A stretch of DNA of 64,000 bases, taken from contig NC_049992.1 of the NCBI RefSeq assembly GCF_000003815.2, forward strand, positions 12,060,131 through 12,124,130, in the 5' to 3' direction. A model generated the notes under the pieces. The model did no database searches. It was not told where the DNA came from and saw only the letters and a program-made list of their open reading frames with translations. How positions within the stretch are numbered: the stretch's first letter is position 1; each line of letters begins with the position of its first letter. Origin of the DNA: Branchiostoma floridae. Lineage: Eukaryota > Chordata > Leptocardii > Amphioxiformes > Branchiostomatidae. The translations under genes were made by a program, and so were the position numbers. Below are positions 794 to 32,900 of the stretch, piece by piece.

Positions 794-2872
794 CTATGTT
801 AGTTATTCCTACAGTTAATGCATGCAGATACAAGTATGTGCACATGTTTCAGTTTTGGTACATTGTAAACCTGAGTTGACTGCAGTTTACTGAAAGCTTG
901 CCAATTTGGTGATATTCTTAAATTCTTCCATCAACATCATTGAGAACATTCCATTTCTTTTTCAAAACAAAATTGGTTCATTAAACTGTAGGCAACTCAG
1001 GTAACCTTTTTATGTGACACTAGGCCTTGTCATGCTTTCTAGACTTTTTCCTTGTTGAGTTGCTGTATTTAGCAACATTCTTTCAGTTCCCTCTGCGGCA
1101 ATAGTTAACAGCTATGTTACAGCTCTGTGTGGAGGATGGATCATACTTGTGTGATGCATTATGGAAATGACATGTAGACAAAAGCATGCTCACAATGTTT
1201 TTAGTATCAAGAAATCACATGCACTCTATTGAATGCTCACTGTTGTATTGACATGCACACTGTTTTGTAGATGAAACCCAATGTTGTATGATGCTTCATT
1301 GTGTGTTTTTAATGATGTTTATAGTTCCTGTTGGTAAACTTAAATAGTTTAGTATACCATTGGCTAGCTGTTAGAAGTTGATTACAAACAAGCTCTGTTC
1401 TTCTGTTCTTTTCTGTTTGATAGGTTATTTCACTTGTTCCACTTAAAATAGATGAGACACTTGTAATGAAACTAGTGTTGTTGTTCCATGTACCTTTGTG
1501 CACACTTGTTGTGGTATGAACCACAGAAAACATGTACTCCACTTACTAGTCATTGATGTGCTGTTGACAATGAAATGTACAGTACAATGTATCCACTGAC
1601 AAAGGAAGTATGCTGTACAGAATTTTACCATGTTTGTGAACAATATTGTGTACATAGATGTGAGTTCTCTCTTTAGTGTATTTTTGTACAATGCCAGTAT
1701 TGCAAAAATGTGAATACAAAATGATCATTTAAGATGTCTGAGTTTGTCCTCGTTTTGTCATGCCTTTTCCAATACATAATTATTAGTTAATGGTACATTT
1801 AAGGTATGGAACAGTCCACCATGATGCAATGATGATAAACCAGTAATGGTCAATGATAATATTGATATTGACACAGGTAAGTTTATGATATTTTGTTTAT
1901 TGACAATTTTGTAAAAAAGATTCAAGAGGTCCATACACCCCTGTAATAACGATGGGGATAGTATAGAATGTGGTACAATCAACTCACAGCTGAAGCTACC
2001 AACTCATGAACTACATTCTACAGAAAGTTACAAGCACACATTATTAGATTATCCACATATGTTACACAATATGCAACACTCTTATTACATGACATGACAG
2101 TATCCTGACTATATGAACATGTCTCACTATCAGCTGAACAATGATGGATAGCATGTGTACATATGCCTTCACTCAACAATGGAACCGGCCATTGATCATT
2201 GACACAAGTAAACATGCACAAACCATCTATATGTAAAATGGAATGCTGATGGTGAAATAAAAAGAACACATAAATAGACATCAACATTACACTAATATAT
2301 AGCCACCATTGTCAAGTTGAACTTTGGTATACAATGGTATGTTTCGACTACCTTAGTTTTGAAGCACACATCAAGACCTATGAATATAATGTGATCATCA
2401 ACACTTCAAAACACCACTTGTTAGTATAGCAATGATAATTTACTAACTGGAAGATGTCACCGGTAACACTGCATTACTATGTGGACTGGTATTTGCAATT
2501 TATACACAGGTTCATTAAAGATAGGAAAATCACAGTTTTCACAAGACGATCAACATCACATATGAAATCAGGTAACTCTTGCATCATCTTGTGATGCATA
2601 TTACAACAATCTGATCACAGCACAATCATTTCAATCTTGAATGTGTATTGAAAATGTGTGTGCTGGTGCTTGGTAAATGACCTCCCCCCCCCCCCCCCCG
2701 GATTTTAGATCCACACAGTGTCAAAGGAATAATACAGCTGTAAAAGAAAGGTCCTGATATATGATAGCCATGCATACATGTAACTCAGGGACATGAAGTG
2801 TCATCAGACAGCAGTAGTGCATCCGTTAGTCACATGTCTGCACATTAGATGAGGGCTTCCATGACAATACAT
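794..2872. other. Non-coding, AT-rich stretch upstream of the first zinc-finger cassette
   Basis: I see no recognisable gene here. Open frames are short, lie on both strands and have no domain signature or paired splice sites. A 17-18 base run of C near 2683-2699 is the only obvious simple repeat. If the zinc-finger exons belong to one transcription unit, this stretch is intronic. Confidence 0.5.
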
Positions 2873-3065
2873 CCCTGAGTACCAAACTATTTCTGCCAAG
2901 GCCCCTTGCACTTGCTGCCCTAAAAAAACTCTGTTGTAACCACTAGCTCAATATTTTCGCTTGCTAATGTTGTTAGCAGCATGAAGATTGAGCCAGTGGT
3001 TACAACAGAGTTTTCTAGGGCAGCAAGTGCAAGGAGCCGTGGTAGAAATAGGTTGGTACCCAGGC
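2873..3065. mobile_element. Foldback element (long inverted repeat)
   Basis: Two arms of about 80 bp (2873-2952 and 2987-3065) are near-perfect reverse complements around a loop of about 34 bp; the inner 48 bp has only a few mismatches. The ends read CCTGAGTACC and GGTACCCAGG. There is no coding capacity. The structure fits a small foldback MITE. A clear target-site duplication was not found, so the family is unassigned. It lies about 150 bp upstream of the first zinc-finger cassette acceptor. Confidence 0.75.
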
Positions 3066-3217: not shown

Positions 3218-3615
3218 GTCGACTTGACCCCATGGGAAGTGGTCTGGTGGAAAAGGCGAGAGATGGGTCGTCACCATGGCAACAGGATGTGGGGAAATCT
3301 AAGCCCCAGTTGGCTTCGGAGAGGCCAACATCGTCTCGTAGTTCTAATCTAGAAGCAACACAGAAACACACATGCCCACAATGCAAGCAAACGTTCCAAT
3401 GTAGTGATGAGCTGAGGAAACATCTGGAGGTCCAGCACCAAAAGCTGACCTGTACAATATGTGGTGCGGTGCTGGCTGGCAAGTATAATTATAAGAGGCA
3501 TATCATGTTCAAGCACAGCACCCAACGAACTTTTGCCTGCAGTTACTGTGGGAAGACTCTGAAACGCAAAGATCACTTGTTGAGACATCTACGAAACTAT
3601 CACGCTACGGAGTGA
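3218..3615 (+). CDS. C2H2 zinc-finger terminal exon, cassette A
   Basis: A terminal exon with an acceptor ending GTAG at 3217 and a TGA stop at 3613-3615. It enters with two bases (GT) completing a codon, the same phase as cassettes C, D and E. The first part holds a Gly-Leu-Val-Glu stretch shared with the other cassettes. Three C2H2 fingers follow: HTCPQCKQTF, LTCTICGAVL and FACSYCGKTL. The last two are joined by an H-S-T-Q-R linker of the classic TGEKP-like length. An in-frame ATG at 3118 exists, but the splice reading fits the paralogues better. Fingers of this type bind DNA in the nucleus; the target is unknown. A poly(A) signal follows at 4390. Confidence 0.82.
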
Positions 3616-4838
3616 TTTCTTTGTTACAAAATCTCTCAAGCAGTTGTTTGAGGTTCCATTCAAATTCTAAGTAGTTGTCAAATTAGAAATAGGTATAGAG
3701 ACAAGCACCATCCAGCAGTTCTGTCATTTTTCTTGTTATTGCACTTTTTCTTAAGGGTAAATAGAAGGTATACCTTTTTCTATCTGAACTGTGAGAAATC
3801 GAAACACATTTTTCAGTATCATGTACTCGTATATTCGGTTTCTGTTGGGATGTTTTTTTCAAAAACAAAATCATTTACAAAATGTTTTCAATTCTTTGTA
3901 ATTATATGTCTAAGAGATTTTATACTTATTTCGAACGTTATTTCAACTTTCTAGATATTACCCTGGCTGTGTAAGACTAGAAATATTGATGTGGAATAGG
4001 ATATCTCTAATACTTTCTAAAGAATGGTAACAGTATTCTACTATTATTTACATTTTTTTGTAACGAGTCAGGGACCTTGAAAGAAAGCAATGATTGTACA
4101 CAGCATCACAGGAATGATGATTCCAATGGTAGAATTACTTGATAATGTTTTATCAGAGAACTGTTTCTTATGTTTGGTCAGGAAAGACTGACTTCAGTTA
4201 GGACTTAGGTCATGTACATCAACAGTATATTACATTTTGCATGTTTGGTGAGAATGGTCTGGTGGATATGTCGAGAAAACGTTAATTCCTGTTTTTTTAC
4301 AACAGTTGGTTATCATTAAGTATGACTGACAGTGTGACTTTGTGTGTTTCATTATAGGAAGCAGAGTTGTGTGTTGTTACCAATGGAAAAATAAAGCTCC
4401 ATGTTCCTACATGGAAACCTTATGATCAGATCATAGACTGTATTTGAATTTGTCAATTGATATGGAGCTAAGACTACTAGTAAGAGTACAGGGCATAATT
4501 ACAAGTCAATACCATGATGATGATGATGAACATGTTGATGTTGAAGAAAGTATCATTCCATGATGAATTATCAAACTGTGCAAGGTCATGAACTAATTTC
4601 TGAGTAACAGTTGTAGATAATTTACAACTTGTGTTCATGTTAACTGTACTCCAAGAAGCAAATGGGTATCCAAGTGAGCTAGATGGAAGTCTAGCCAAAG
4701 AAGTTAAAAAATGATGGTAGTACACACATGCTATGACACAAGCAAGTCTGAAAACACTGTTACTTGTTTTACTTATAGTGTAAGATTATGAAGTTGTGAC
4801 TGCCAGATTTTATCTCCTATTCCAATTAAAACCTTTGA
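3616..4838 (+). other. Probable 3' UTR of cassette A and following intron
   Basis: AT-rich and without coding signatures. It contains a poly(A) signal at 4390-4395. A 10-base string GGTCTGGTGG at about 4252 matches the start of cassettes A and C and could be a relic of another cassette, or chance. Confidence 0.5.
4390..4395 (+). terminator. Poly(A) signal AATAAA, probable end of cassette A transcript
   Basis: A canonical hexamer about 775 bp after the cassette A stop, on the sense strand and before the next cassette. This is consistent with each cassette having its own transcript end. No cleavage site can be confirmed from the sequence. Confidence 0.45.
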
Positions 4839-4938
4839 NNNNNNNNNNNNNNNNNNNNNNNNNNNNNNNNNNNNNNNNNNNNNNNNNNNNNNNNNNNNNN
4901 NNNNNNNNNNNNNNNNNNNNNNNNNNNNNNNNNNNNNN
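4839..4938. other. Assembly gap of exactly 100 N
   Basis: The length of exactly 100 suggests a placeholder for a gap of unknown size. It removes the acceptor and the first Cys of cassette B, so that exon may be larger than it appears. Confidence 0.95.
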
Positions 4939-5176
4939 CTCCTGTGGTGAGAAGTTTGAATCGCGTTCAAAGCTCACGAAGCATGTGAGATCCCTGCACC
5001 AGAGGATGAGGTGCACGATATGTGGTCTGGAGTTGTCCAACAGGTTCAACCATGACAGGCATGTGAAGATGAAGCACACCAGCCAGCGTGACTTCGCCTG
5101 TGTTGTGTGTGCAAAGACATTCAAACGGAGTGACCACTTACAGAGACACATGCAAAATACCCACCCATCTTGGTGA
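4939..5176 (+). CDS. C2H2 zinc-finger terminal exon, cassette B (5' end in gap)
   Basis: The reading frame emerges from the N gap in the middle of a finger: only its second Cys (SCGEKF) and the two His are visible. Two complete fingers follow, MRCTICGLELSNRFNHDRH and FACVVCAKTFKRSDHLQRH, then a TGA at 5174-5176. The ELSN-(K/R)-(F/Y)-N/S-HDRH signature is shared with cassettes D and E and marks them as one paralogous series. The final finger is followed by only a few residues, as in the others. The acceptor and N-terminal linker cannot be seen. Confidence 0.8.
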
Positions 5177-5778
5177 GATCTTTTTGTATATTAGCAAATA
5201 CATGTACATGACGTATGTTTCAAGGATCTCGCCAAAACAGAGAATCAAGTGTCGATCTAGTTTTACAGGTGATGATAGGAATCAGCGACAGTCATGACAG
5301 TGTTCCCCAAGACACAAGGCTTTAAAGTTTAAATGCATCCCTGAAGGAAGGGATTGTATCTCCCAATCCGTATGGCACACAAAATCACATAACATCAACT
5401 AATTTCAACACATCCTGGTTTAAAGGTTAACAAGTTCAGTGTCCTATCATATTCAACTGAGCAACAACAACAATCCACTGAGCTGACATTTCTGATGACA
5501 TTATCCAAGCAACCCAAGGTCTGAGCTCTGTGTTACAGTGTTGACACAGATGTGACAAATCATGGACATATAAGTCACACACTGCACACATTATTTAAAC
5601 CTGGAGGACTAGGCTGTTGTACAGAGTGCTGTACTTACTGTTCCACCAGACCCAGTCTAAGATTTCTATGTCCAGATGATATTTCTCATTTTGATGGATC
5701 ATCAGATTCATACAAAGCTGGTGTGTTACTCTGAAGAGCCATTATACCGACTATATCGAAACAGATATTCCTGCCTAG
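5177..5778 (+). other. Spacer between cassettes B and C
   Basis: No conserved coding segment is visible. It should hold the 3' UTR of cassette B and intronic sequence leading to the acceptor at 5808. Confidence 0.4.
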
Positions 5779-5808
5779 AAATTGAACTTGACCTCTGTTC
5801 GTCCTCAG
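5779..5808 (+). promoter_or_regulatory. Conserved 3' splice-site leader of cassette C
   Basis: About 30 bp directly before the cassette C acceptor contain AATTGAACTTGACCTCTGTT and then a pyrimidine-rich CAG. The same block with two changes precedes the cassette D acceptor at 8554-8583, although the exon bases right after the acceptor are less alike. It is either a leftover of tandem duplication or a conserved splicing element. Confidence 0.55.
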
Positions 5809-6404
5809 GTGGCAGTGACCTCGCGATAGTTGGTCTGGTGGAAAGGACTAGAGGAGAGGCAACCCCGAGGACCCAGGAACATGACATCACAAGGCCTGAA
5901 CCACTGTTTGTTTCTGTGAATCCTATGAACAATCCCCTGGAACAGGGGCATGTAACCGTGCACACCTGTGGTCAGTGTGGAGAACAGTTCAGGGAGCAGG
6001 AGGCACTACATCACCATGTGCAATTGCTCCACCAGGCACCATGCAGTAGTCACAATGATCCGTATGGTGATGTTGGTGCTTCTCCAGGCATGGCAGGCAG
6101 ACAGTCGTTGGACCAGTCACACATGCTATCATTCGTAACCCCGGATGGAACTCTCTCCTATCCATGTTCAGACTGTGATATGACATTCATGTCGTCTACA
6201 GATCTCCTTGCACATATAGAGGCCGCCCACCAAAAGGCCCACTGTACCCTATGTGGACAGAACTTTTCCTGCAACTCCAGCCTACAGAGACATATCAGGG
6301 CTGTACACAGCGCACTGCGACATTACGTCTGTGACGTGTGCGGGAAGGCCTTCAAACGGAAGGACCACTTACAGAGACACATGCAGAACACGTGCAGGAC
6401 ATGA
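5809..6404 (+). CDS. C2H2 zinc-finger terminal exon, cassette C
   Basis: The acceptor CAG ends at 5808 and the exon starts GT, completing a codon (phase shared with A, D and E). The N-terminal linker has G-L-V-E-R-T-R-G and D-I-T-R-P-E-P, closely matching cassette E (G-L-L-E-E-T-R-G, Y-I-S-R-P-E-P). Four fingers follow: HTCGQCGEQF, YPCSDCDMTF, AHCTLCGQNF and YVCDVCGKAF. The last one ends HMQNTC, so its fourth zinc ligand would be Cys (C2HC) rather than His. Stop TGA at 6402-6404. Probably a DNA-binding end of a nuclear regulator. Confidence 0.85.
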
Positions 6405-6617
6405 CAAAATCTGAGAACATATTTACTTTAGGACTGCGTGCTACCTTTTTGTTACCAAGCACATTTTTCCTGGATGATACAACCATACCTATAGCCTCCT
6501 ATGGAAGTACATGTATGTTGATTATAAACTAAATGGTTGAGTTTGTATACGAGTCTTATCCATACCGGTAGTAAGAAACAGTTTGTTCTTCCCAGAATTG
6601 CTTTCCTTTGATGATGT
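6405..6617 (+). other. Probable 3' UTR after cassette C
   Basis: No coding signature. It leads into a run of transposon insertions (6618-6960 and 7555-8278) that fill most of the interval to cassette D. Confidence 0.4.
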
Positions 6618-6960
6618 CAGGGCTTTAGCCAGCTCGAAACTTTTTTCCGTCAGCCAATCGTCGCGAAAATTAATTAGAAGGACCAACGTCCTTGGAAGGA
6701 CTGAACTGAGACCTTGAAAAACGGGTTTTAATGAGATTATCGTATGCGAAAGGGCACCGACACACATTGTCAACAATCATAACAATAGCAAAATAAACAG
6801 TGTGTGGCTTTTACGGCCGTGGATGGCGTCCCCAAGCCGCCTGAAGCTTCCACCAAGGATTTTTGTCCGTCAAGGTTGACGGATTGGTTTGAAAATTTTT
6901 CCGTCAGACGCAACAAATTTCTGTCAATTGACGGAAAAACGGACGCTGGCTAGAGCCCTG
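6618..6960. mobile_element. hAT-like non-autonomous element (MITE), 343 bp
   Basis: The element starts CAGGGCTTTAGCCAGC and ends with its near-perfect inverse, GCTGGCTAGAGCCCTG. It is flanked on both sides by a perfect 8-bp duplication, GATGATGT (6610-6617 and 6961-6968). CAGGG ends plus an 8-bp duplication are the hallmark of hAT transposons. It has no transposase. An internal stretch of about 140 bp (about 6710-6850) is closely similar to 46850-46985 inside the larger element at 45913-47165, so the two are relatives. Confidence 0.9.
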
Positions 6961-7554
6961 GATGATGTGGACTCCACTGCTTCATCACGTTCAGACTTTT
7001 TAAAATTTTCAATCAATCAGATTTTGAATAATGTCATGAATACATGATGGCTCTTGGATGATGTGTACATAACCTGGTAAGTTACCTCAATCATAGGTGT
7101 TGCATTTCAAAGCCATATCTTCTGGAAAATCGAACATATCAATTTTCACAATGAATAGAATCTGTCAGTTGATTTATCACACACATTTGTTGGAGAAATG
7201 TGTACCTAGCTTCTGTAAGAAAACTTGGGCCACAGAAGGGCTTTTTTATGTGTGAGGTTAAAGCCATTGGTTATGTAATTTTTTGGGTAATATTACTTCA
7301 GATATGTGACTGTACAATTCCAATGTACACTTTCAATGTACAATGAATGTTAGCAATCGTTAAAACTAATACTGTTAAGGCTGTGTTGGTGCTGTAGTCT
7401 GGGCATTGTTGACTCTTTGTGGTTTGTGTACTGTTTTTAGATTGTTTATCTGTATGAATGATGCTGAATAATCAGTGCACATGTTATTAGGTACTTAGTC
7501 TTGAGCACAACATTTCATAGATATGCCATTGCGATCTCTATTACATGTTTTTTG
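6961..7554. other. Non-coding spacer
   Basis: AT-rich with no gene or structured repeat that I can recognise. Confidence 0.4.
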
Positions 7555-8278
7555 GACCCCATTCACACTCAGAAAAACGATTCGGATCAAACATTTATCC
7601 GAAAAAAAAAAATTCTATCCGATCCAAAATTGCGTTCACACTCGTCTTTGGCAATCCGATTAGTGCGCCCTCAGTCTTATCCGAATGAAACATTAGGCTG
7701 AGGTCAAAGGGTAGCGCCATTTCTTACAGCTCAAAATGGCGGGAATCCACCAACTTTTGATGCTGTTGTTCCTCTGGAGAATGTTCTGTAGTCGTAGAAG
7801 GGAACGCAATCAACGGTCTTTGATCGCGAGAAGGTTTCACCGACAAAGTCTTCTGCATATTGGGATAGCTGTAGTACAGCTCAGATGTACGCCACCAGAG
7901 CGGCAGACAGAATGATCTGGGAGCGGGAGCGAAGCCTTGATTGGTGGAACAACATTGCGCTTTGAACATTTTCAGACTCGGACTGGCAGAAAAACTTCTA
8001 ATTGAGCAAACTCACCTTTATATAAGTTGCATCCTATCCACTTAAAGTGAATCCTATCCACTTGCGCGTTCACACTGCCGAATCGAGACTCCCCGTGGCT
8101 CAGTTTTATCCACTTGCCGGAGTTCTATCTGCCTCCCCGAGGTGGATCGCGGGGGATTCGAATCGATGAAATCCAAGTGATTTGGGAGCGTTCATACTGC
8201 TAAGTTTTATTCGGATCGGGTAGTTTTATTCGGATAACATGTTTTATTCGAATCGTTTTTCTGAGTGTGAATGGGGTC
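7555..8278. mobile_element. MITE with perfect 30-bp terminal inverted repeats, about 724 bp
   Basis: Bases 7555-7584 and 8249-8278 are exact reverse complements over 30 bp, beginning GACCCCATTCACACTCAG. Flanking bases (TTG on the left, TTA on the right) are compatible with, but do not prove, a 3-bp target duplication. The interior has further short repeats of the terminal type (GTTCACAC, TTATTCGGAT). A short Arg-rich frame on the + strand (7736-7915, 59 codons) is the only notable coding stretch and matches nothing I recognise. The superfamily is unassigned; PIF/Harbinger is one possibility. Confidence 0.85.
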
Positions 8279-8553
8279 TTAATACATGCATTACTATGTT
8301 GAATGTTCCTCTTAGAATCAAATGTGGTTTATTCATGTTTACTCATGTTTCGTGCACATGAACTTCCTTGTGATCTATTAAAAGTTATTTGCACTTGAAT
8401 TTCTGTATGTGGTGTTTATTCAAAAGGTTGTCTCCTTTTACATCAGACTTTTTGTCACTTTTTACACCAGGCTTTTTTTCTGGAGGCTTTATCTAATTGA
8501 ATATTTCTCTCAACTGTTGTCAGCTGATCAAATTATATGAAAATGGCCATCTA

Positions 8554-8583
8554 AAATTGAACTTGACCTCTGTTCATCTTCAG
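8554..8583 (+). promoter_or_regulatory. Conserved 3' splice-site leader of cassette D
   Basis: Contains AATTGAACTTGACCTCTGTT followed by CATCTTCAG; see the equivalent block at 5779-5808. Confidence 0.55.
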
Positions 8584-9218
8584 GTCACCATGACCCAGCA
8601 GCAGCAAGTCTGAAGCAAACTGTGGGAGGGGGATCCTCACTATTCCAACACAACTTCCGAGGGATACCAGTGGAACTAGGAGTACCCTCGTTCATGTCTC
8701 AGTCTCAGAACACGAGTCAGCCAGAGGGTCACGGTGGATACGTTTGCGGTCAGTGTCGTAGACATTTCCTCTCCCATCATGCACTGGTAACCCATGTGAA
8801 GGAGGACCATTTCTCGGCACCTCGACCACCCTCATATCATCTCGAAGAGGCGACCAATGAAAGAGAGCCTGATGCACAGTTTGAAACACCGACCGCACCA
8901 GTCATTCAGCAGCCACCAATGACTGGAGCATCAGGCCCTAGTGAGGATACGGAGCAGTATCCTTGTAGCCACTGTGATAGAATGTTCAAGGCCAAGTCAA
9001 GTCTCATGAACCACTTGAAGTCACAGCATGAGAAGATAGCCTGTGCCATCTGTGGTATGGAATTGTCCAACAAGTTCAGCCACGACCGACATTTCAAGTT
9101 GAAGCACTGTGACCAGCGTGACTTTGCCTGCTTCCAGTGTGGAAAGACTTTCAAACTGAGAGACCATTATAGGAGACACATGCAGAAATCACATCAGGAC
9201 ACTCTGTCGCATATGTGA
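8584..9218 (+). CDS. C2H2 zinc-finger terminal exon, cassette D
   Basis: The acceptor CAG ends at 8583 and the exon starts GT-CAC-CAT, the same entry phase as the other cassettes. A linker of about 50 residues follows, then four C2H2 fingers: YVCGQCRRHF, a long spacer, YPCSHCDRMF, IACAICGMELSNKFSHDRH and FACFQCGKTFKLRDHYRRH. Stop TGA at 9216-9218. The third finger carries the ELSNK-HDRH signature of cassettes B and E. An ATG at 8622 is in frame but internal. Likely a nuclear DNA-binding end; target unknown. Confidence 0.85.
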
Positions 9219-9689
9219 TCTTGGATGAAAAGTATGGAGAATTGAAATCAATGGCATACACGGATCGTGTTTATTCTTGGAAGACAAACTGTCGGTGCTG
9301 CAACTAGCTAAAGAGCAATGTCAAACTTGTTGGTGATGCTTATGACTATATTCTATCAAACTGCTCCCCAGCAACTGTGTTCCAAATAATCAGTCATAAA
9401 AGTCTGAACCAACAGAGTTTTCTTCTACCATGAAAATATACACACAGAGGAACAGGGAGACTTATCATTAAATGTACATGAAAGGGTTGCATTTAACTAA
9501 AAAGCGACCCCTTGGTGTAATAGTACACAAATGGATGATGACAAATGGATGATGATTTGATGGCGGCAATGGTAATAATGTGCAGACATGCTGCATCTTG
9601 TGCAAACCAATCTGTCCAGACTCATGTGTCATGCATTACATACATCACACGAAGACATCAGAACTCAGTTTGGATTCTTTCGCCTCCAG
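9219..9689 (+). other. Spacer between cassettes D and E
   Basis: Probable 3' UTR of D and intron. Nothing else is recognised. Confidence 0.4.
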
Positions 9690-10246
9690 GTTGCCATAAA
9701 ACGAGGACTGGTCTGCTGGAAGAGACGAGAGGAGGACCATTACCATGGCAACATTACATCAGCAGACCTGAACCGCCGACATGCCATGTTTCTGAAGGCC
9801 CCAGGGATCACCTTTGTATTACATGTGGGAAAACGTTTGACTCTCATCAAATGTTAGTAAGCCATGTCCAACTTCATCACCAGTTACCTAGTAGTTACTC
9901 CACGGAGTTGCCTGGAGATTCTCATCCAGGTGCAACAGCCTCTTCTGGCAGTGAATCTGCAGGTCCAGGATATCCAGCAAAGTACGGTAACCCAGAAGGG
10001 ACGTTAGAGGAACATCAGACGTTCCACACCTCTGCAGATGCTGCTCGTCACGCTAAGCTACAGCGTCAGAAGAGAGAGTGCTCCATATGCGGCGTAGAGC
10101 TGTCCAACAAATATAACCACGACAGGCACGTTAAATTGAAGCACAGTAACCTGCGTGACTTCGTTTGCACCTGGTGTGGAAAGTCGTTTAAGCTGAGGGA
10201 ACACCTGCAGAGACACATGCAAAAGAACCACATGCCCATGCCATAA
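9690..10246 (+). CDS. C2H2 zinc-finger terminal exon, cassette E
   Basis: The acceptor CCTCCAG ends at 9689; entry is again GT completing a codon. The linker G-L-L-E-E-T-R-G and Y-I-S-R-P-E-P matches cassette C. Fingers: HLCITCGKTF is intact. The next expected finger is eroded (F-H-T-S-A-D-A-A-R-H with no Cys pair). RECSICGVELSNKYNHDRH and FVCTWCGKSFKLREHLQRH are intact. Stop TAA at 10244-10246. The lost finger means it probably binds with three fingers while C and D have four. Confidence 0.84.
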
Positions 10247-12114
10247 TAACACACATCCAGACTGGAGTCTGCCAAGGCAAAGCTAGATAAACAGAGAAAG
10301 TAGCAACTTGATAATAAGGAATCAGTTTTTATTCTTCACATGTATCAAGTTGAACATACTTTTTCAGCAGTGACCTGACAGCATGAAACTTTGTACAGAT
10401 AGATGATGTGATGTAATGATCTGGTTTTGTTTATCATAGCTACACCTGCTCTAGGTGCGAAGTTGGAATAAGACGTCATGCAATCTTTGATTTTTGTGTG
10501 TAGATTTGAAGTTTCCATTGATTTTTGCTCTTCTATGACAATCAATTATGAGTATCCTAAGGATGAGTATGAAGATGAGTATCCTGTCTGAACTGTCTGT
10601 AGCTGCCATGCATCAACAAATGATGCAAGGAAACAATTGATTTTGATTGACTGATTGATTGATTTATTGATGCAAGGAAAAAAGAAACCTTTGATGGAGG
10701 CAGGAGTTGAGTCGTATTAGTTGATTACATTAAATATACATGTAGGATGATGGTTATAATGTAGGGTGCTTTAGAACATGGGAAATCTTTAAAGCAGGTG
10801 CTTGTATTAGGTACCTTTGTGTCATTACTGCCGGCCATGTCTATCATAGAATACGAAAACGCGCTAGACATTCCTTGGTTATTTCGAAGACCTGGACTTA
10901 TTTGTTTTGCGGTTGACATTTTGTAAACCAGACAGCAAACAGTTGTACAAAATCATAATTTCAGTGCGCACATATAGTGAAACTGTTATTTACTTAGCAA
11001 TATGTTAATTGAATCATTATTTAGGGAGTTCGCCATTGTGGAAAGGTGAAATGTTCAACATCTGAGGCTACGTTTTAAGCACGTTAGTTGGGGGTTTGTT
11101 TTCTTTATTGTTGTTACTGTATAGTACTGATTATGTGACATGTACAATGCAGTATTGGTTTTAGTGCGTAGATATGTAATGAAACTATTCTTGTAAGGCA
11201 TGCAGAACGTTCTGAAATGTAAGCAAAAAACAAACAAACTTTGTAGGTTATGTTTGAATCCTGTTGGGAGTTTGTTCGTGTTTAGTTTGGTTATTTTAGA
11301 GCCTTACGTATGTTGGCATAATGGCAATGTAAAGCAGAGTGTGCTCTTTTGTCAATCTAGATGTAGATCACAAAAAGTTAATAGCACAGTATTGTAAGCT
11401 TGTACGTATACAGCAGTACATGGCACAGTATTGTATGTATGTAAGCTTATACAGCAGTACATGGTACAGTATTGTAAGCTTGTAAACCAACGCCTTTTGA
11501 TTTTCAGTTTTTATGTTACACCACTTTTTCCTTTTCGTAGCTTATATACATGTTTTCTTCAAATATGCGTCTCGAGTCATTATTGTGTTAAAGCATTGAT
11601 ACATTTAAAGGAATAGAATGTGAGAATTTCTACAAAATCATGACAGCTGAAGCAGAACAACGCATTTGTAATTGTCCTTGGAAGCCACCATGTCATACAT
11701 TGTAACTTTCACTGACGACATTGTAGTGTATGGAAAGGGAAAAGACTAGAACACCGACCAGGGGTACCTCAAGGCATCATGCTTGGGCCCCACTTGTTGG
11801 AGGAGGGGTGCCCACAGATGGACGATTCAAATTAGATTCCGTTGTTTCTTCCTTTTGTGACATTAGCGTTGTTTTCCCTTAACGTGACCTTTGTCTTGCC
11901 ACTAAGTCTTTCTCACACTTGTCTTAGAATCGTGAATGCCAGTTGGCCGCATTGCATTATATAGAAGATCAAGTACCATTTACTTAATTAGTAACACCAA
12001 ACAGTAGCCTTAATGCGATTCACTACAATATATTGAGCTATAAAGCTATACAGTATTTGAATTCTGAAAACGCGCTTTAAATGGTCATGACAGAGGTACG
12101 TTCTTTGTCTATAG
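10247..12114 (+). other. Long spacer before cassette F
   Basis: No gene recognised. It contains a TGAT-rich simple repeat near 10640-10665 and a retrotransposon relic at about 11746-11796. Confidence 0.4.
11746..11796 (+). pseudogene. Relic of a non-LTR reverse transcriptase
   Basis: In one frame the sequence reads P-G-V-P-Q-G-I-M-L-G-P-H-L, which resembles the conserved GVPQGSVLGP motif of LINE reverse transcriptases. Flanking frames are closed, so only a very short fossil remains. Confidence 0.4.
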
Positions 12115-12353
12115 AAATGCCGAGGAGCTCGGGCGGTACTCAGCAGCCGCACCAGTGGAGGGAAGTCCTGGGCACCATGCTTCCTCAGCAGTACGACCAC
12201 CTGCAACCGCCAGGGGGCGCAGCTGATTTTAGCGTGTACGGCGACCAGCGTGGCGACGAGGGCGTGTTCTGTGACCTGTGCGGCAAACGGTTCTACAGGA
12301 AGCAAAACCTTATTAACCACAAGCGGGAGGTACATGACAAGATGAACGTCGTG
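12115..12353 (+). CDS. Zinc-finger cassette F, first exon
   Basis: The exon follows a pyrimidine-rich acceptor (TCTATAG, ending 12114) and again enters with two bases completing a codon; a start at the ATG at 12117 or 12081 is also possible. It encodes a Gly/Gln/Pro-rich linker and one finger, VFCDLCGKRFYRKQNLINH. It ends at a good donor (GTG then GTAAGA, 12354) in phase 0. This cassette spreads its fingers over three exons where the other cassettes use one. Confidence 0.75.
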
Positions 12354-12582
12354 GTAAGACAAGTATAGCTCCGTGTTGTTTGATATGTGATTCAATTGGA
12401 CTTATTTGTCTGTAAATTGTCAAAAACATAAAGCCAGGGCTACCCAGCTCGCTATGAATGAATCGTCTTCTGAAACAAGGAATATGCGAAGGGAATGATC
12501 ATACCATTTGATCATGTTTATTGATTGCATTCCACTTATTCGATTCTCTAAATATCAGTTTGTCCCATTGGTGCCTTTACAG

Positions 12583-12653
12583 ACATGTGAGCTGTGTGGG
12601 GCCGAGGCCTGTAATAAATACAACCTGGCCAGGCACATGAGGACCAAACACAG
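12583..12653 (+). CDS. Zinc-finger cassette F, second exon
   Basis: A 71-bp exon between acceptor CAG (12582) and donor GTGAGT (12654). It encodes one complete finger, TCELCGAEACNKYNLARH, ending M-R-T-K-H. Phase 0 in, two bases out, matching the next exon. The spacing equals that of the ELSNK-HDRH finger in cassettes B, D and E. Confidence 0.82.
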
Positions 12654-13189
12654 GTGAGTCTCCAGACGATACCATATTCCTTTCCCCGTATTTTCCTCGA
12701 TTTGTTTATGTACAGTTACATCAGGGGATCATGCGTAATACGGTGTTCCTCAGTTTCGTCCCTCCCTGTTTCCCTTCCAAGGGTACTGTCACCCTTATTG
12801 TACAATGGGTTTATAACAGGATTTTTAAGGGAGGGAATTTGTAGCACATTGATGGGTGTGTCGTACTACAATGTAATCTCCAAGCAGATCCTACGGTGCC
12901 AAGGAAAATAGCGGGCCAAAGGGAATCAGACGGGCACTCCGGTCGCATACACACTCCTAGGCCGGTTTTACTCCTCTGCCAGCCTTTGATACTATTTTAT
13001 GCCACCGTAGGATCTACTTGGAAATTATTTCGTATACAACAACAAGCCGACTTGGGACGGAAAATGTCGCTATTGATTATTTCTAACGATACGATACCTT
13101 CGCTGAAAATCCCAACATAAAAACTACGCCCAAACAGCGGATTGCTACGTCATAACGTTTCCTCTGTCTCTCTCTGACCGTTCTCACAG

Positions 13190-13319
13190 CGACAGCCGTA
13201 ACCACACGTGTCACGAGTGCGGGAAGTCCTTCAAACTGCGGCATCACATGACGCGCCACATCATGAACAGGTCGTGTGCAGACAGCAACGCTCCAAATGC
13301 TCCACCAGACAACAGTTAA
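13190..13319 (+). CDS. Zinc-finger cassette F, last exon
   Basis: The acceptor ACAG ends at 13189. One base completes the Ser codon from the previous exon. The finger HTCHECGKSFKLRHHMTRH ends I-M-N-R-S-C, so the fourth ligand is probably Cys, as in cassette C. A short tail precedes TAA at 13317-13319. The F-K-L-R-x-H core is the same as in cassettes D and E. Confidence 0.82.
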
Positions 13320-13471: not shown

Positions 13472-13683
13472 TATACTGTAAATGTATTTAAGTTCGCGGG
13501 AATTTAATTTCGCGGTAGCGGGAAAAAGGACTTTTCGCGGTGGATTTAAGTTCGCGGTAACACCGTAGACTGCAATCTAATATCATAATAGAAAAATGTT
13601 CGCGGTGGTTTTAAATTCGCGGTGAAGTGGTCACCGCGAAAACCGCGAACATTAATCCACCGCGAACATTTCTGCATTTACTA
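13472..13683. mobile_element. Small inverted-repeat element rich in CGCGG motifs
   Basis: The left end (TGTAAATGTATTTAAGTTCG) and right end (CGAACATTTCTGCATTTAC) are imperfect inverse copies. The interior has many TTCGCGG and CCGCGAA words in both orientations. It lies in the probable 3' UTR of cassette F. Similar CGCGAA words form a short tandem repeat inside the hAT element at 45.9 kb. Confidence 0.6.
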
Positions 13684-16892: not shown

Positions 16893-19800
16893 TTCACTAT
16901 GACAACGGTAGGTGGAGACATCCCAACCCAATGAAGCCCAAGCTGTTACAAATGACCAATATGTTCGGCATTAGGAAGTATTATGTAAGTTTTCTTCTAA
17001 ATACACTATCTGTATATCTCTAATTTCTTAAGCTTCCGATTTCACCAGGGTGTTTTCTTTTACACAATCAGTGGTATGGTCTCACCTGCTTACGTTTCGA
17101 TGTCTATTAGACATTAACACTCCAGTCAGAAGCTTTGAGGAAGTTGTCTGATAAGCAGGAGGGACTATAACTGGTTGTGGAAAAGAAAACTCCAATATCC
17201 TCTGATTTATTCTTTTGATCTGAAATTCTTCCACCGACGTATGTCACATATTAAAGATGAAATCTTGAAGCTCTGGATGGAAAACTTTTTTTTGCAGAGG
17301 GAAGACTTAGAGCACTTCACACCCCGGGAACGAGAGGACTGGGTGCTGGAGCAGTTTGCGGCTTATGATGACGAGCTCAGAAACAATCCTGGGGACGACT
17401 TTGTAGAGGAAGTGCTGAAGAGGCTCCAAAAGGTTTGATTTTTGCTCAAAACTTTTCACCCTCTTGCATCATCATTAGCTTCACTCTCATATTTCATGAT
17501 GAAATACTAACGGGCGAGGTAGAATACAAAATACGTACGTTCAGCACACCACAAAACATTCTATAAGCAGAGGTTAGGCTCCATTTGTTTTGGCGCCTTT
17601 TCAGGCGTTTTCGTCAGGTTTTCAATTTCGTCAGGATTCATGTGTGTGGCTGATAGACAAAAATAATAGCTGGCAAAATAGAAAGTCCGATAAGACGCCC
17701 CAAAAAATGCACAAAACAGCTGGAGCCTAACCTTTGCTCATAAAGTAACCACAAAAGGACTTAATACCATACCTAGATCTCATTTGATTACATTGGTTAT
17801 AACCTAACACTACATTTTTAGTAACAGTAACTTTTTCCACAGGAGACGAAGAGGTGGATCTCCTGGAACCATCGCGCCTTCGGGCCGGTCAAGTCCCGTG
17901 CCCAGATCCTGCATCTCTCGCAGTGGGTGAAAAACCTCAAGCGTAGAGGTAAGTTTTTCTCAGTTATTAACATGTTATGTACATGTCTTAACGAAAATCT
18001 TGTTAAGGATCCTTTTTTCCCCTACTGTACATTTTAGACATGGACTTCAACCTGCAATTGTACACAATTGAATTATACTATTCACCTGGGGACCAGTCTT
18101 TCCCAGGGCTGTAGGCCCAGTGTTTTTCCGCAATTTAACCTTCTTTTCCCGCCTGGCCAACTTTTTGCTTAGTTTGATAAAAAAAATGATAGCCCTAGTT
18201 GCCATTAAGGGTCTTCCTTGGAAGTCTATCGAAGGAGGGGGGTGGTATGTTAGCCCTAGTGCGGTCAAGCTGGCCTGTGTGATCACTAGGTAGCTATCGG
18301 GAAGCACATTGACATGTTGTCATTCATTCATTCCCTCACTCCACAACCACAAGGTTTTATCTACACGTCCGGAGACACGGATGACGATGTGGACGTGCTG
18401 GACCAGTTCGAGGATCACGTGCTCAGGTTTGACATCCTGCTGGACACGTTCAAGGCCAACATCTACAACCCGCTGGCGGACTTCTTCTACGACGACGATG
18501 AGGCCGCACTGGACCTCCAGGACATCATCTTTGAACTGGATTCAGGTGAATACAACGAAACTCCTTTCTAATTACCTGCAGTGAAAAACTGAGATTTTGG
18601 GACGTTGGCGGAGTATTTTGTCGTAACTTTGATAAGTTGATTCGAAATTTATTCCAAGTCTAAATAATAAATCTAAAAGAGGAACATTGCCGAATATGTC
18701 AAATACAGTCTAGTTTTCCCTATATAAATAAATATAGGGTGGCGTTACATTAATGATAAAAAAAGTCTCCTGATCGCCCCTGTTCTGTTGTCACCAGCTT
18801 TGGATGCCTGGAAAGGTCTGATGAGCTGGGAGGACGTGGACGCCTCGCTGTTCACCTTCGCCAGTAAGGGGTGTGTGGACGGCCTGACGTGCCGGCAGGG
18901 GCAGCGGGACTTCGGGCTGGTCCTCCGACTCCTCCCCGACCTCAGCGAGAAGGCCCACGAGAGCCTGCGGCTAGTCCGCAGGTGGCGCCTGATGCAGGCT
19001 GTTGACAAGGCAGAGGCCTCCACGCCGAGAAAGTACGGCAAGGGAGACACGCCGGCCAAAGCGTACGGAAAGTCCTCCAAGAAACACGCAGCCGCGAGAA
19101 ACGACGAGGACGAGCTGAGAGACGAAGACGAACCGTCCGCCGTCGATGACGAGCAAACCCGAACCAGCTTTTCGGTCGAAATCAGTAAGCGTAGGAAGTT
19201 CAAAGGACAATATGGCAACGCGAAGTCTGACCTGGCGAAGTACGAAAGCCGCTGTCAGGAGCTGGAGGCGGAGATACAGAGCCAGAGAAACAGGGTCAAA
19301 GACCTGGAGAAACAGCTGCGAACTGCCCAGAGGAAGTTCAACAAGTTCGAAAACGAGGTTCGGGGTGAGAAGCGGAACTACAGGAAGCTGAGGGAGAGGT
19401 TACAGGCCATGAAGAAGGACAACAAGCAGCTGGAGTCTCATCTGGACAACACAACAGACAAGTACCACTCTGTGGTCGCACAGATGCAGCAGATACTGCG
19501 CAGGTTCGCCACTACATTTATTTGTCGTCATGCCAGTTTGTTCAAGTACATGTAGGTGGAAAAGTGCAGTATTTGGATCCACAGAATTCATTCATAAGTA
19601 ATTCCATGCGTAACTCCATGACTCTGAAGCTTAGAGGCTCGTTTTTATGTCGACAGTCTGTCCTTTGTCGTACTCGTAGAACAAGAGATGATTCAGAGTT
19701 GATATGAGGTAAAAAAAATATATGTCAGTTTTTTTTTTATTGTCGATGTTGCCGACAGGTCCAGACAACTGCGGGACTACCAGAACCAGGCCAAGGATAA

Positions 19801-22099
19801 GGTGGAGGGTTCACAGAAGGAACTGAAGGAGGCGAACGAACAGATCAAAGCGCTACTGAACGAACGGAAGGCCCTGAAGCGGAAATGTGCCTTTTTGAAG
19901 ACAAGAGCACAGAACAACGACGCCAAGGCTGTGTAAGTGTTTAGGTATAATGCATGAGTTGTAGCATGGGCCTGCGAAGGTTTTTGTTTTTCGTACAACC
20001 TTATCGGGGCAACTTCCCTGTACCGTCAACTTCCCACATTGCATTCTAGGGAAGAAAGAGGCCTGAGTTTAGACTAGATATTATCCAAACTTTACGTCAT
20101 AGCCATAAATCGATTTTAGCAACTAACATTTTTGGAACGAGGAAAAAGAGGAAAAAGTACAACTTAGGCTTTCTGTTTTTCTCTTGACAGTCACATGGAA
20201 AGTCAGTTGGATAAGACCAAGGAACACGGTCAATATACAGAGAAGGAGCTCTTCAAGGCAAGAGAAGAACTGAAGAAGCTACAAGACAAGCTCAGCATCA
20301 ACGAGAAGAAGACGCAGAACATGGAGGAAAAGTTCGTTCTTACTGGATTTCTCTTATCACGCGTTCTTGTTTTGCACTGAAGACTGAAGCAGAGTAAATA
20401 CGGTTAAAATTCACTGTGTTGTACATATTGGATTGTCAGAGTACTGTAAGGGAGACGGCCTGGAATATGAGAGACACATTTTGTTCACTTTGGCAAGCAT
20501 CTTGATTTCCCTCTAAGCGTATTGGACACTGTAGTCGCTGTGTACGTACGGTGTACTGTATTCATTTCCCGCTACACAACGTATATGCTGACGGAGCTGT
20601 TTCTGCAGGTTGTTCCAGGCGCGGGAACGTGCTGACACCATCCTCAAGGAGCTGAAGGAGAAGGAGAAGCGGGCGGAACAGCTGGAGCAGGAACACACAC
20701 AGCTGCTGGACATCTTCAGAGGTGGGCATAGTGCAGATAAAGTTTAAAAAAATACTTTTCTTTGTCCTATCCATATATAATATACAAACTCGATATTGAC
20801 ATATTGCGCAATCACATTAAAGGGATTATAATTAAATCTCCCCATTTGTGTCTAGCCTTAGTTTCTGATAATTTACTTTCTATAGTAATCATATTTTATT
20901 ACATTTGCAGAAAATTACAACGACATGTCTTGTCTGCGTATAGTACCCATGAAATAATTGCAGATAAAGTTTATGCGAATAATTCTTTTCTGACCACAGG
21001 TACGTTTTAATTATCTAGACACGCCATAGATCCTGTGTTGTAAAGACTCTTTTGTTGTAAGGTTCTTTTACCCTCTTCTATTCAGAACTTCCAAAACGGA
21101 AAGAGAAGCCGCTCTCGAACTACCAACTCGACGTCATCGCTGCGAATATTGAAGACTTCTGGCCGGATGTTGCCAAGACGCTCGGCATGTCTCGGACAAC
21201 CACCGATCACCTTCGCCGCGACTACTCCGACGAGAAGAACCGAAGTCGCGCGATGTTGTACGAGTGGAAGGCACGAAGTGCCGAGAAGGCAACCATGAAG
21301 TCGCTGGTGGCTGCGCTTATTGCGATGGGCTACGGACATCAGGACACAAAGGCGGTTTTTCAGGTATTGAAAACAGTACGTTAGAAGGACAGCTATATAA
21401 CCAGTAATGCGCGGTAACTTTTATAATTTTGTTAATGCTTCTCTCATGTAACATCCCAATGATGATAACTATCTCAAACAATTATTGATGGTGTATATCT
21501 TATTACAGAATCAGCTGACCAAGAAAGCGTTGAAGACCAAAGAATTGAAAGACCGTCAGGCTGTTAAAGAGGAATCGTCGGGGCGAGGCAGCAGTGGTTC
21601 TAGCGGGTACGAGTCAAACGCCAAGGCTCCGACAACTTGCGACTTTGACGGCGATCGGGAGTACGAGTCCCTGCCGAAGATACACGATCGTGAATATGAG
21701 TCGGCGAAGAAAAACGATCCTGACTACGACTACGACTCGAGAAGGCACGACCGAGACTACGAGAGGGACGACCGCGACTATGACAGGCGCGACAATGAGT
21801 ACGACAGAGATGGTCGTGAGTATGACAAGGATGGCCACGAATATAACGGGGATCGTGAATACGACAGGGACGATCGGGACTACGGCAGAGATGACCGTGA
21901 CTACGACAGGGATGACCGAGACTACGACAGGAATGGCCGCGAATACGACAGAGGTGAATACGACAGGGACGACCCTGAGTACGAGACTGCCCAGGAGAGG
22001 CGTGATCCCGAGTACGACTATGACGCTATGCTGAAGAAGGACGACTATTTGCCAAAAATGCGCGGGCGAGAAAGAACTGCTCCGGAAATTGAATATTGA
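16893..22099 (+). CDS. Coiled-coil, death-domain protein with repetitive Asp/Arg/Tyr tail (10 exons)
   Basis: The exons, all with matching phases and GT/AG borders, are 16893-16984, 17298-17432, 17843-17948, 18354-18545, 18798-19503, 19759-19932, 20191-20331, 20609-20721, 21086-21363 and 21509-22099 (about 842 codons). The N-terminal third is helical, acidic and from no family I recognise (H-F-T-P-R-E-R-E-D-W near the start). From 19190 to 20721 it is a charged coiled coil with heptad-like Leu spacing. Exon 9 is a death domain. The last exon is a low-complexity D/R/Y tail. Death domains assemble receptor or innate immune signalling complexes, and the coiled coil suggests oligomerisation. The N-terminus is uncertain: the first codon of exon 1 is split, so an upstream exon is needed unless the ATG at 16933 is the start. 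Confidence 0.85.
21086..21363 (+). other. Death-domain exon of the coiled-coil gene
   Basis: The frame shows the death-domain helices in order: Y-Q-L-D-V-I-A-A-N-I (helix 1), F-W-P-D-V-A-K-T-L-G-M-S (helix 2), an acidic middle, M-L-Y-E-W-K-A-R (helix 5, with the invariant Trp), then T-M-K-S-L-V-A-A-L and G-Y-G-H-Q-D-T-K-A-V (helix 6). The whole domain is one exon, as is often the case for shuffled domains. Ligand or adaptor unknown. Confidence 0.85.
21653..22045 (+). repeat. Tandem codon repeat encoding R-E-Y-D-R-D-D units
   Basis: About 130 codons of the last exon are repeats of (R/G)-(D/E)-Y-(D/E)-R-(D/N)-(D/G), for example DDRDYDRDDREYDR-like strings. The DNA repeat is imperfect, so all frames appear open here. 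The tail resembles charged, tyrosine-containing disordered segments; a function cannot be assigned from the sequence. Confidence 0.85.
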
Positions 22100-22457
22100 A
22101 TGCTCACGCAACAACCTCGTTTGACTTTGAGCTTGAGCTATGAACGATACAAAGAACACTCCTTACCAGTGTCACCATGTTAAACTATGGTAAAGGCCTA
22201 GGCGCCTTGAAGCATGCACTGTCCGGATGTGTGCCGCACGTATGTCTTTGCGTGTGAGTTACCCCCTCTCTTTCCATGAGTGTACGCGCGTACATGTAAA
22301 CAAACTGTATATATACATGTGTACTTGTGATCACAAAGGAATCACTTCGTCCAATCCTTGAAAGGTTTTAGATGGGATTTTACCAAACATTGCAACTTGA
22401 ACCCCATCCCAAGCTGGTGTAACGACCACATTTTTCAACTTAAACTGGGCCATATTT

Positions 22458-29900: not shown

Positions 29901-32900
29901 AGCAAACTCAAGTAAGCAAAGAAGCCTGACTACTAAGATGGTACTGTTAGGCATGTTATGCACATGTCAATGTTAACCAAAGGGGGAGGCAGCAGGGATG
30001 TAAACAGCAATGTACGCATCACAAAAAACACAGTTGTAGTAATGATGTTACTCAACATTCATTCTCAAAAGCTGGCCATGACAACTTCACTACACAGCAA
30101 TCCAACTGAACCCATACCCCTCCCTATGGCAGACATTGATAGGTGCATAACATGAATAAGTACCTTTTTGTATAGAAAATTAACCACCTTTTGGATCCAC
30201 GGAACTTGAACTGGTAATCCACCTTGCCACAGAACTCACACTTTAACAGAGTTTTATCCTGTAGCTTCTTGGGCTTCTTGGAAGGTTGCTTGCCATCTTA
30301 TTGGGAATAAAAAATTTTCTTAATGAGTCTTATGAGTATACCACAGTCACTCTGTTAACCACAGTCAATCCAATGATATTCAAAGTACAGGTTGAACTAC
30401 ACGTTTGCATTTTTGGTCCATCTGTAGATAGATAGATATATATACATCTGACTACACCACAACTGGACCTGACATACTTGAATACTAATTCCTTACTCCT
30501 CAGGAAGCTATTCTAACATCACTAACTTTGATCTTTGGAAACAAATTCTCCTACAGTTGGCTGACAGTTGGCTATGCCCTCTATAGTGCAAGAGCAGGGC
30601 AGTTAAGACGATTACAAAGACGGAGTTCTAGGGGGCTGTTTCAACTCAGCCTATGACAGTACATAAAACATGCCCTAGTACTGAAGGGATATGCAGTTCC
30701 AGACCAACCTGGGGACTGTATAAAACTTTAAGCAGTGTGCTGTCATTCTCATTCAGCAGGGCAGTTAAAAAGAGAATGAACCAAGAAGAGTTCTAGGAGA
30801 CTGGTTCATGAAACGTGGTAGTACTGAAGGGTTACGCAGTTCCAGACCAACCTGGGGACTGTATGAGCAGCGTGCTGCCATTCTCACTGCTGGGCCCTGC
30901 CTCAGGGGACAACTGGTCCTTTGCTAGGCTGATGTGGGGACGTCTGGACTCCACAAGGATGGAGTTGTGCTTGATCTGGGACAAGATGATAACAATGCAA
31001 TCATACAATACATCATTTATTCAGTTACATACCCCATCTGTTCATGGACACAAATGCTGTAAAGCAGCATAGTTGGAACAAGAAATGTGAATTACATTAT
31101 TTGTACAACTTTCCTTCATAGAGCAGATATTACATTTGTAGATGTTCCCTTCTTTTGCAACTTAAATCTTAATTACTGTACCAATTGTGGCAGAAGAACC
31201 TCTATCTGTTGCTAAATCCTGTTAATATTCTCTGATCAATGCTGACATTGATCCCAGACTTTAACTCTCTTCCCAAAAAGAAACATTGGATGTATGGGCC
31301 ATAGTATGTATGAAAACTGAAGGATTGACGGTGCAAAGCTTCTACCATCTGAGAAGCCACTATGAGCCTTTAGGGAGGAGGAATAGTTCATACTGTATGG
31401 AGAAACTCACAGGGAATGGCTGAGGCCCCTCCTGTATAATGAAGCCATCTATGAGGTGAGTGAGGATCTGTGGCTTGACGACTGCCCGCTGTGGCTGTTG
31501 CTTCTCTGGTTGTGGTTTGTTGAGTGCCAGTGGTAAGTCACTGCTACGACTGGCCGGAGGGTCTTCTTTTGGGGGCTCCGGGGACTTCATTGGATCGGCG
31601 GGTTTCTCCTGGGGCGCTGTCTGTTTTAGGAAACAGTACAACAGTGGGATGTTAAAACTGTATCATCGGTAGGAGGTTCAACTGAAAAATGTGTATAGAC
31701 AATACATGTAATAAAGTTGTGCTGGAGAAAACAATTCTGGAAAAGACACTAAATTACTGTTACAATCTTCTTTTTCATGAATATCATTGTTCCCATTCAA
31801 AGGGGGAGGGGGAATGTGAAATAAATATATTTAAGTCCATCATTAGGTGATTCCCCTAACAATGTGGTAAGCAACATAATGATATGGTAAAATAATGATA
31901 CATATGTTATACCAGGAGAAAGTAATGTGGAATGAAAAAATAAAAAGATACCCAGAACTACTACAACACAGCAAACTAAAGAAAACCATGTACTCAATAC
32001 CAACTTAGAATCTATCCATCGCCAATGAAATCATTCAGCATAAGTAAATCAAGATCATTTACAAGCAATTGAAAATGTTCCTTACCAACCTTTACGGAAC
32101 AAGTTAGAAAGCATTAAAGACAGATCAAGAGCAGCCTCCTATGCTACCAGCACACCAAACTGTCTCTTCCACACTTAAGGGACTGTCCATTTATTATCTT
32201 AATACAGCAAGAGAAAGCTTAAATTCTTAAATTGCTATATTGCAAATAAATATTGTTTCAGTGTAAATTTGACCAAAGAAGCATTACATGTATTTCGAGA
32301 CTTAAGTTCTTCTTATGAAGAAGAAAACCTGCTAAGTTCTAACTTTTCACTCCATCCCTTATATAAGAAATGATCTCTCCCCTTTTTTGATGATGCACTG
32401 AAACTGAGTGGGTGAGTCAATACAGGGTCACATCATTAACAAAGGGGGGTTCTGTTCTGACAACCCAACAATACAGGATGTTCCCGTCCCCAGTGGGGAA
32501 ATGGATGAGCCCATTCTTATTCAAAATCCTGCTGTTCTGGAACAATGGGCCAGAACAAACAGTTCTGAGATACTGCAGAACAACTAGCCCTTAACGTACC
32601 TGCTTGTTAAGCGAAAGTAGTGTCTTCTGCCATAAGTTGGGGGCGGGAATTTTAATGGAGTATTGTCTGGTAAAGAAGGTGTGACAATGTAGTAATTGTC
32701 AGATTTTTCTCTTTTGTTTCCTCTAAGTTTTCCCAGGCTTTATGTCTTTTTTTAGCACACAGTTCTAGGACACATCTTAAACAATGGACAAAATGCCACA
32801 ATCTATTCTGATCTTCCAAAGAACCCTAAGCTTAAGTACATGTACTTTCATATACACAAGGTCTTGTAAAACATCCTTGATACGTATGTACATACTTGAC

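Follow-up and report, generated by a model that had tools for sequence, protein, structure and literature searches.

The window analysed here, 64,000 nucleotides of the lancelet Branchiostoma floridae (C14:12060131-12124130), holds the downstream end of a locus that, on balance, we read as a single plus-strand gene running from -33.4 kb to window position 13319, in which a constant N-terminus of 284 amino acids would be joined to one of about 75 alternative C-termini. Coordinates are those of the window, with negative values upstream of it and position x corresponding to 12060130 + x on C14; every exon and docking site named below lies on the plus strand. The 100 kb 5' of the window was taken into the analysis alongside the window itself, and genome-wide searches covered 513,431,437 bases in 431 contigs. 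An earlier sequence-only reading had described a series of alternative zinc-finger 3' exons in the window and likened it to the Drosophila lola locus; it covered only the tail of the locus, three further alternative ends and an array of 66 exons lying outside the window.

In the arrangement we propose, the phase-1 donor of a common exon would be joined to one of three single ends, to one of six C2H2 zinc-finger cassettes, or to a three-exon branch whose own donor would then be joined to one of 66 tandem, stop-terminated exons. A docking site behind the branch (docking site 1) would pair with the selector before one of these exons, loop out the intervening exons and bring the chosen acceptor close, and two more docking sites at the far end of the array (2 and 3) may separate off the exons that follow downstream. 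Lying on either side of the array, the docking sites may also settle whether an array or a zinc-finger end is used, or move a remote 3'-end site close to the selected exon. What can be read directly from the sequence are the splice-site-like borders, the phases and open frames, the selectors and docking sites, and their concentration at this locus; the existence of the corresponding transcripts we infer. Every junction and every pairing can already be predicted from one genome. The complete picture, of a chordate transcription-factor-like gene in which competing RNA pairings pick one of 66 last exons and which adds a choice of other DNA-binding ends in the manner of lola, some of them transposase-like, for about 75 C-termini, is one to which we would give an even chance. 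The encoded protein is probably nuclear.

The 66-exon array

The branch (-25955..-25885, -25633..-25196 and -24903..-24667) is the fourth route from the common donor; it is entered in phase 1 and ends in a phase-0 donor, TGG/GTAAGT, that faces the array. The array itself, spanning -22943 to -632, was built from four seed frames and then by profile and matrix scans that took it from 45 to 60 to 66 exons. As curated, it consists of 66 related plus-strand exons of 18-62 residues each, with a median spacing of 319 bp, whose commonest residues read x-F-x-K-Q-L-S-K-R-I-R-H-V-R-W. Their acceptors are in phase 0 (64 CAG, 1 TAG and 1 without AG), each exon has its own stop, and in all 66 cases the joined frame is open from the start ATG to that stop. 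A matrix score of 8 together with a pyrimidine tract gave 65 matches in -24.6 to +3.3 kb (one exon doubled) and only 1 in the controls, for which the entire minus strand of the 164 kb and the off-locus part of the plus strand were used, a comparison flattered by the training of the matrix on the array itself. The array exons would very probably be used after the branch donor.

Neighbouring exons of the array resemble each other more than they do once the order is shuffled (p 0.0005), and codon position 2 has the fewest differences, position 3 the most. Among 13 close pairs, the pooled ratio of nonsynonymous to synonymous differences (pN/pS) is 0.46, and nonsynonymous divergence (dN) is below synonymous divergence (dS) in 12 of them. 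Given their stops, the array exons should be last exons. The candidate reading of them as internal, mutually exclusive exons was rejected, because all 66 end in stops and there is no donor enrichment 3' of the stops.

Several results weigh against this account of the array, in addition to the self-trained matrix. One of the 13 close pairs has dN above dS. Placement of the variable positions on one face of a helix, as a swapped helix should show, was looked for and not seen, an angle of 100 degrees giving the weakest signal of the six angles compared. Nor is there an excess of donors or of poly(A) hexamers past the stops: the best donors average 4.8 against 5.1 at random and reach at least 7 after 10 of the 66 stops, against 22% expected, while AATAAA or ATTAAA occurs within 150 nt after 8 of the 66, against 12.3 expected, and any of 12 poly(A) hexamers after 41, against 39.9 expected. 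A canonical poly(A) signal for each array exon is thus not supported. Counted across the entire region, AATAAA and ATTAAA likewise do not exceed expectation, and TATAAA, CATAAA, GATAAA and certain other variants exceed it slightly (by about 1 to 1.3 standard deviations each). With no enrichment of either donors or canonical poly(A) hexamers past the stops, these counts do not account for 3'-end formation at the array.

The same lack of enrichment, along with the variable tails of the exons and the one copy without an AG acceptor, would suit an array that is a decaying and largely unused relic of tandem duplication. We regard this as very improbable, in view of the 66 open joined frames, the AG acceptors in 65 of 66 exons and the pooled pN/pS already given.

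Putative selector and docking-site elements

A k-mer count revealed that CATTGATAGGTGCAT-like words recur along the plus strand. As an 18-mer, the element has 43 plus-strand matches (<=4 mismatches) between -21314 and -1452, and its reverse matches within the locus fall only at -24349, -893 and -217. Reduced to 15 nt, the selector scores above all 100 shuffles in 42 of the 66 array introns, at a median of 139 nt 5' of the acceptor. Three perfect (15/15) reverse complements of it stand at the array borders, and any other candidate from -33 to +14 kb has at least 3 mismatches. Docking site 1 (-24348..-24334) lies 319 nt past the branch donor; docking sites 2 (-892..-878) and 3 (-216..-202) flank the last array exon, at the far end of the array.

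The element is concentrated at this locus. Of the 35 exact copies of its 14-mer in the genome, 25 are in the array, 3 stand in reverse orientation at the array borders, 1 is at window position 30135 and 6 are on other contigs, which places 28 at the locus and 7 outside it in 513 Mb; a control pattern for this count occurred once genome-wide. With 28 of 35 copies at the locus, the selector is not a dispersed repeat, and a dispersed mobile element is an unlikely source for it. The copy within the window (30132-30149) has no adjoining array exon that we could see and is probably due to chance, though rare.

Pairing between docking sites and selectors is likely to steer the choice of exon. It must be set against this that the shuffle test finds no selector in 24 of the 66 array introns. 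Half of these (12/24) are introns of at most 150 bp, compared with 4 of the 42 introns that have a selector, and one selector may serve two or three adjacent exons, as the short selector-less introns would suggest. A different reading keeps the array exons as true alternatives and takes the repeated element for a protein-binding splicing signal, the reverse copies being incidental and no docking taking place. The 24 introns without the element fit such a signal, as does the position of docking site 2, located where the selector of exon 66 would be. However, the three reverse copies are perfect across 15 bases and confined to the array borders, and exact off-locus copies are as rare as stated above; we therefore hold the protein-binding reading to be rather improbable and prefer RNA pairing.

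The predicted constant part and its other ends

The start exon (-33384..-33283) has an in-frame TAG three codons 5' of its ATG and a phase-0 donor, and sits in the CpG-richest 500-base window, with 33 CpG where the median is 7 (scan from -36 to +17.5 kb). The common exon (-32570..-31820) ends after base -31820 in a phase-1 donor, ATG/GTAAGT, 35 kb upstream of the first zinc-finger cassette (A); joined, the two exons give an open frame of 284 residues. The sequence-only reading had guessed that N-terminal exons would be found upstream of the window, and start and common exon are indeed there, with a donor phase that matches the cassettes. It had also suggested that they might encode a BTB domain. 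The expected phase-1 donor is present, but Pfam (E<=1) gives no match for the joined common part, and a genome-wide BTB search, in which 150 of 702 candidates were scored, listed no match within 100 kb upstream; the nearest listed on the same contig, C14:12423641, lies about 300 kb past the far end of the window. On these grounds a BTB N-terminus is not supported.

The three single ends that follow the common exon (end 1, -31174..-30783; end 2, -29794..-29181; end 3, -28235..-27709 plus -27419..-27273) have phase-1 acceptors and stops, and their joined frames are open. End 3 matches zf-Tnp_2, a transposase-type zinc finger, at a Pfam E value of 3.9e-5, barely past the cut-off, and its acceptor was chosen rather than observed, two having been tried and only one keeping the frame. 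End 1 resembles, we presume, a helix-turn-helix and end 2 a BEN domain, likenesses for which Pfam has no match in either case. These domain searches do little for the gene as we draw it: besides the common part and ends 1 and 2, all blank in Pfam, end 2 has no match in the PDB, the branch domain has PDB matches only at E>=0.44 with no known domain recognised, and an NCBIfam scan of common part and branch domain returned a single meaningless match (E 0.06). A genome-wide paralogue search with the last branch exon found only the exon itself.

The six cassettes in the window, all on one strand as previously described, are virtually certain to be real. On the plus strand of the window the C2H2 pattern has 19 matches, which all fall within 3373-13277 and group into five single-exon forms, A (3218..3615), B (4939..5176), C (5809..6404), D (8584..9218) and E (9690..10246), and the three-exon form F (12115..12353, 12583..12653 and 13190..13319, the last with the stop); four minus-strand matches look like chance. 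B is cut at its 5' end by an assembly gap of 100 bases (4839-4938) that hides its acceptor; another gap lies at 35-793. The five visible acceptors (A, C, D, E and F) share phase 1, as had been claimed, an AG being followed by two bases that complete a codon (GT in four, AA in one), A, C, D and E each have their own stop, and joined to the common donor each of the five frames is open to a single stop. The shared motifs could also be verified, GLVEKAR, GLVERTR and GLLEETR in A, C and E respectively and ELSN..HDRH in B, D and E, and the segment comprising zinc fingers ZF2 and ZF3 with a 7-residue linker between them is constant at 51 residues across A-E. Both cassettes that were scanned in Pfam, A and D, match zf-C2H2 (3.9e-11 and 9.1e-9). 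Over these 51 codons, the ten pairs among A-E have dN of 0.18-0.45 and a dS that is saturated in six pairs and 0.96-2.06 in the other four; low dN with high or saturated dS indicates that the cassettes are old and constrained.

Judging by phase, open frames and CpG content, the zinc-finger cassettes are probably spliced from the distant common exon. Alternatively they could form a separate gene with its own promoter and a short first exon spliced to A-F, leaving the array to the gene upstream. A candidate for such an exon exists at 1846..1876 (MVNDNIDIDT, 10 residues). It is closer to cassette A than the common donor is (1.3 kb against 35 kb), its phase-1 donor, CAG/GTAAGT, is strong (12.6 bits), and joining it to A, C, D, E or F gives an open frame in each case, which tells against our assignment. 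Yet its surroundings are CpG-poor (0-3 per 500 bases, against the median of 7 and the 33 at the start exon), it would contribute no more than about 10 residues, and the same phase is available from the common exon. For its CpG-poor surroundings and the almost complete lack of contributed protein we rank this start lower and consider a separate gene unlikely, though its chances are far from negligible. In-frame ATGs also occur in the open frames 5' of the acceptors of A (3175), C (5676, 5694), E (9545 and others) and F (12081, 12087), so the earlier claim that no cassette needs an ATG of its own goes beyond what the sequence can show.

Cassette F deserves separate consideration as a possible gene of its own, downstream of the other cassettes. 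A further ATG lies two bases past its acceptor, it contains two introns that the other cassettes do not have, and CpG is near normal at 12-15 kb. Against this, its acceptor phase is that of A, C, D and E and its three-finger layout is like theirs; an independent F is unlikely in our view, and we keep it among the ends of the single gene.

Other sequence features accompany the cassettes. A stretch of 22 nt is common to the regions just before the acceptors of C and D; its reverse complement was sought from -40 to +20 kb and does not occur there with fewer than 5 mismatches, and a second pairing system, one serving the zinc-finger cassettes, was rejected. Two nested inverted repeats (54 nt with 89% and 31 nt with 94% complementarity) form a long hairpin at 2874-3064, 150 bp 5' of cassette A, part of which, CAACAGAGTTTTCT, recurs upstream of cassette E. 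Between C and D, a 724 bp segment (7555-8278) with 77-nt inverted ends (77%) is CpG-rich relative to its surroundings and resembles a transposon remnant. CGCGGT-rich inverted repeats occur just 3' of cassette F (13527-13678), and similar words, ACCACCGCGAA, near -30.7 kb suggest a small dispersed element. Further downstream, plus-strand open reading pieces of an adjoining gene (window 16900-22100) include a coiled-coil-like stretch, as well as a tail with abundant RDYD repeats. Far upstream of the window, at about -78.9 to -70.7 kb, there is an 852-codon open frame with many C2H2 fingers, along with two smaller frames with a lone finger each; these are apparently other zinc-finger genes, not linked to the locus here.

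Comparison with known systems

A search of open-licence papers found no description of such a lancelet locus. Among the closest known systems are the Drosophila loci lola and mod(mdg4), for both of which trans-splicing is known. Like these, the lancelet locus would combine one constant N-terminus with many alternative C-terminal ends that are mostly DNA-binding; several such ends with a common acceptor phase and their own stops are present (zf-C2H2 in A and D, zf-Tnp_2 in end 3). In excerpts of PMC11426971, 17 of 20 lola isoforms are given different C2H2 ends, and mod(mdg4) at least 30 isoforms, most of them with FLYWCH domains. Both are BTB factors of the TTK group, whereas no BTB domain was found in the lancelet constant part, and 66 of the lancelet ends, unlike those of the fly loci, form one homologous array with selector-like elements. 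The lola-like logic of the earlier reading thus holds for the alternative 3' ends, their single phase, their own stops and the upstream phase-1 donor, and not for the BTB N-terminus, absent from the search results. That the locus works like lola stands; that it is a lola/BTB locus fails on the defining BTB domain. If the reading is right, its zinc-finger ends would show the lola principle evolving without BTB.

Large arrays chosen by docking sites and selectors have been described in insect Dscam and a few other insect genes, where they act on internal exons. In Dscam exon 6, as outlined in part of PMC8787164, a docking site occupies the intron before the first variant and a selector precedes each of 48. 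The lancelet array resembles it in its tandem homologous exons with one acceptor phase, in a docking site, complementary to the selectors, behind the constant exon, and in a selector before most exons; the position of docking site 1, 319 nt past the donor, corresponds to that of the exon 6 docking site (sections of PMC8787164, PMC11802352, PMC6071210). The Dscam cluster, by contrast, comprises 48 internal exons of a cell-surface protein, and the lancelet array 66 stop-terminated exons of an unrelated protein, with 24 introns lacking a selector. Internal exons with their own 5' splice site were not found among the 66, all of which end in stops without enriched donors. In layout, then, the array resembles Dscam exon 6, and it falls outside that class on one feature, its stop-terminated exons.

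Docking sites on either side of an array have a precedent in Coleoptera Dscam1 exon 9, for which dual docking sites are described in PMC8042237; there, different selectors serve the upstream and downstream sites, whereas one selector fits all three in the lancelet. Among vertebrates, ATE1 offers RNA pairing that chooses between mutually exclusive exons, though only two of them (7a and 7b) rather than 66 (PMC11802352, in part). If true, the lancelet array would exceed the 48-exon Dscam1 cluster, and the docking/selector mechanism would have arisen in the chordate line too, at larger scale, acting here on the last exons of a probably nuclear protein.

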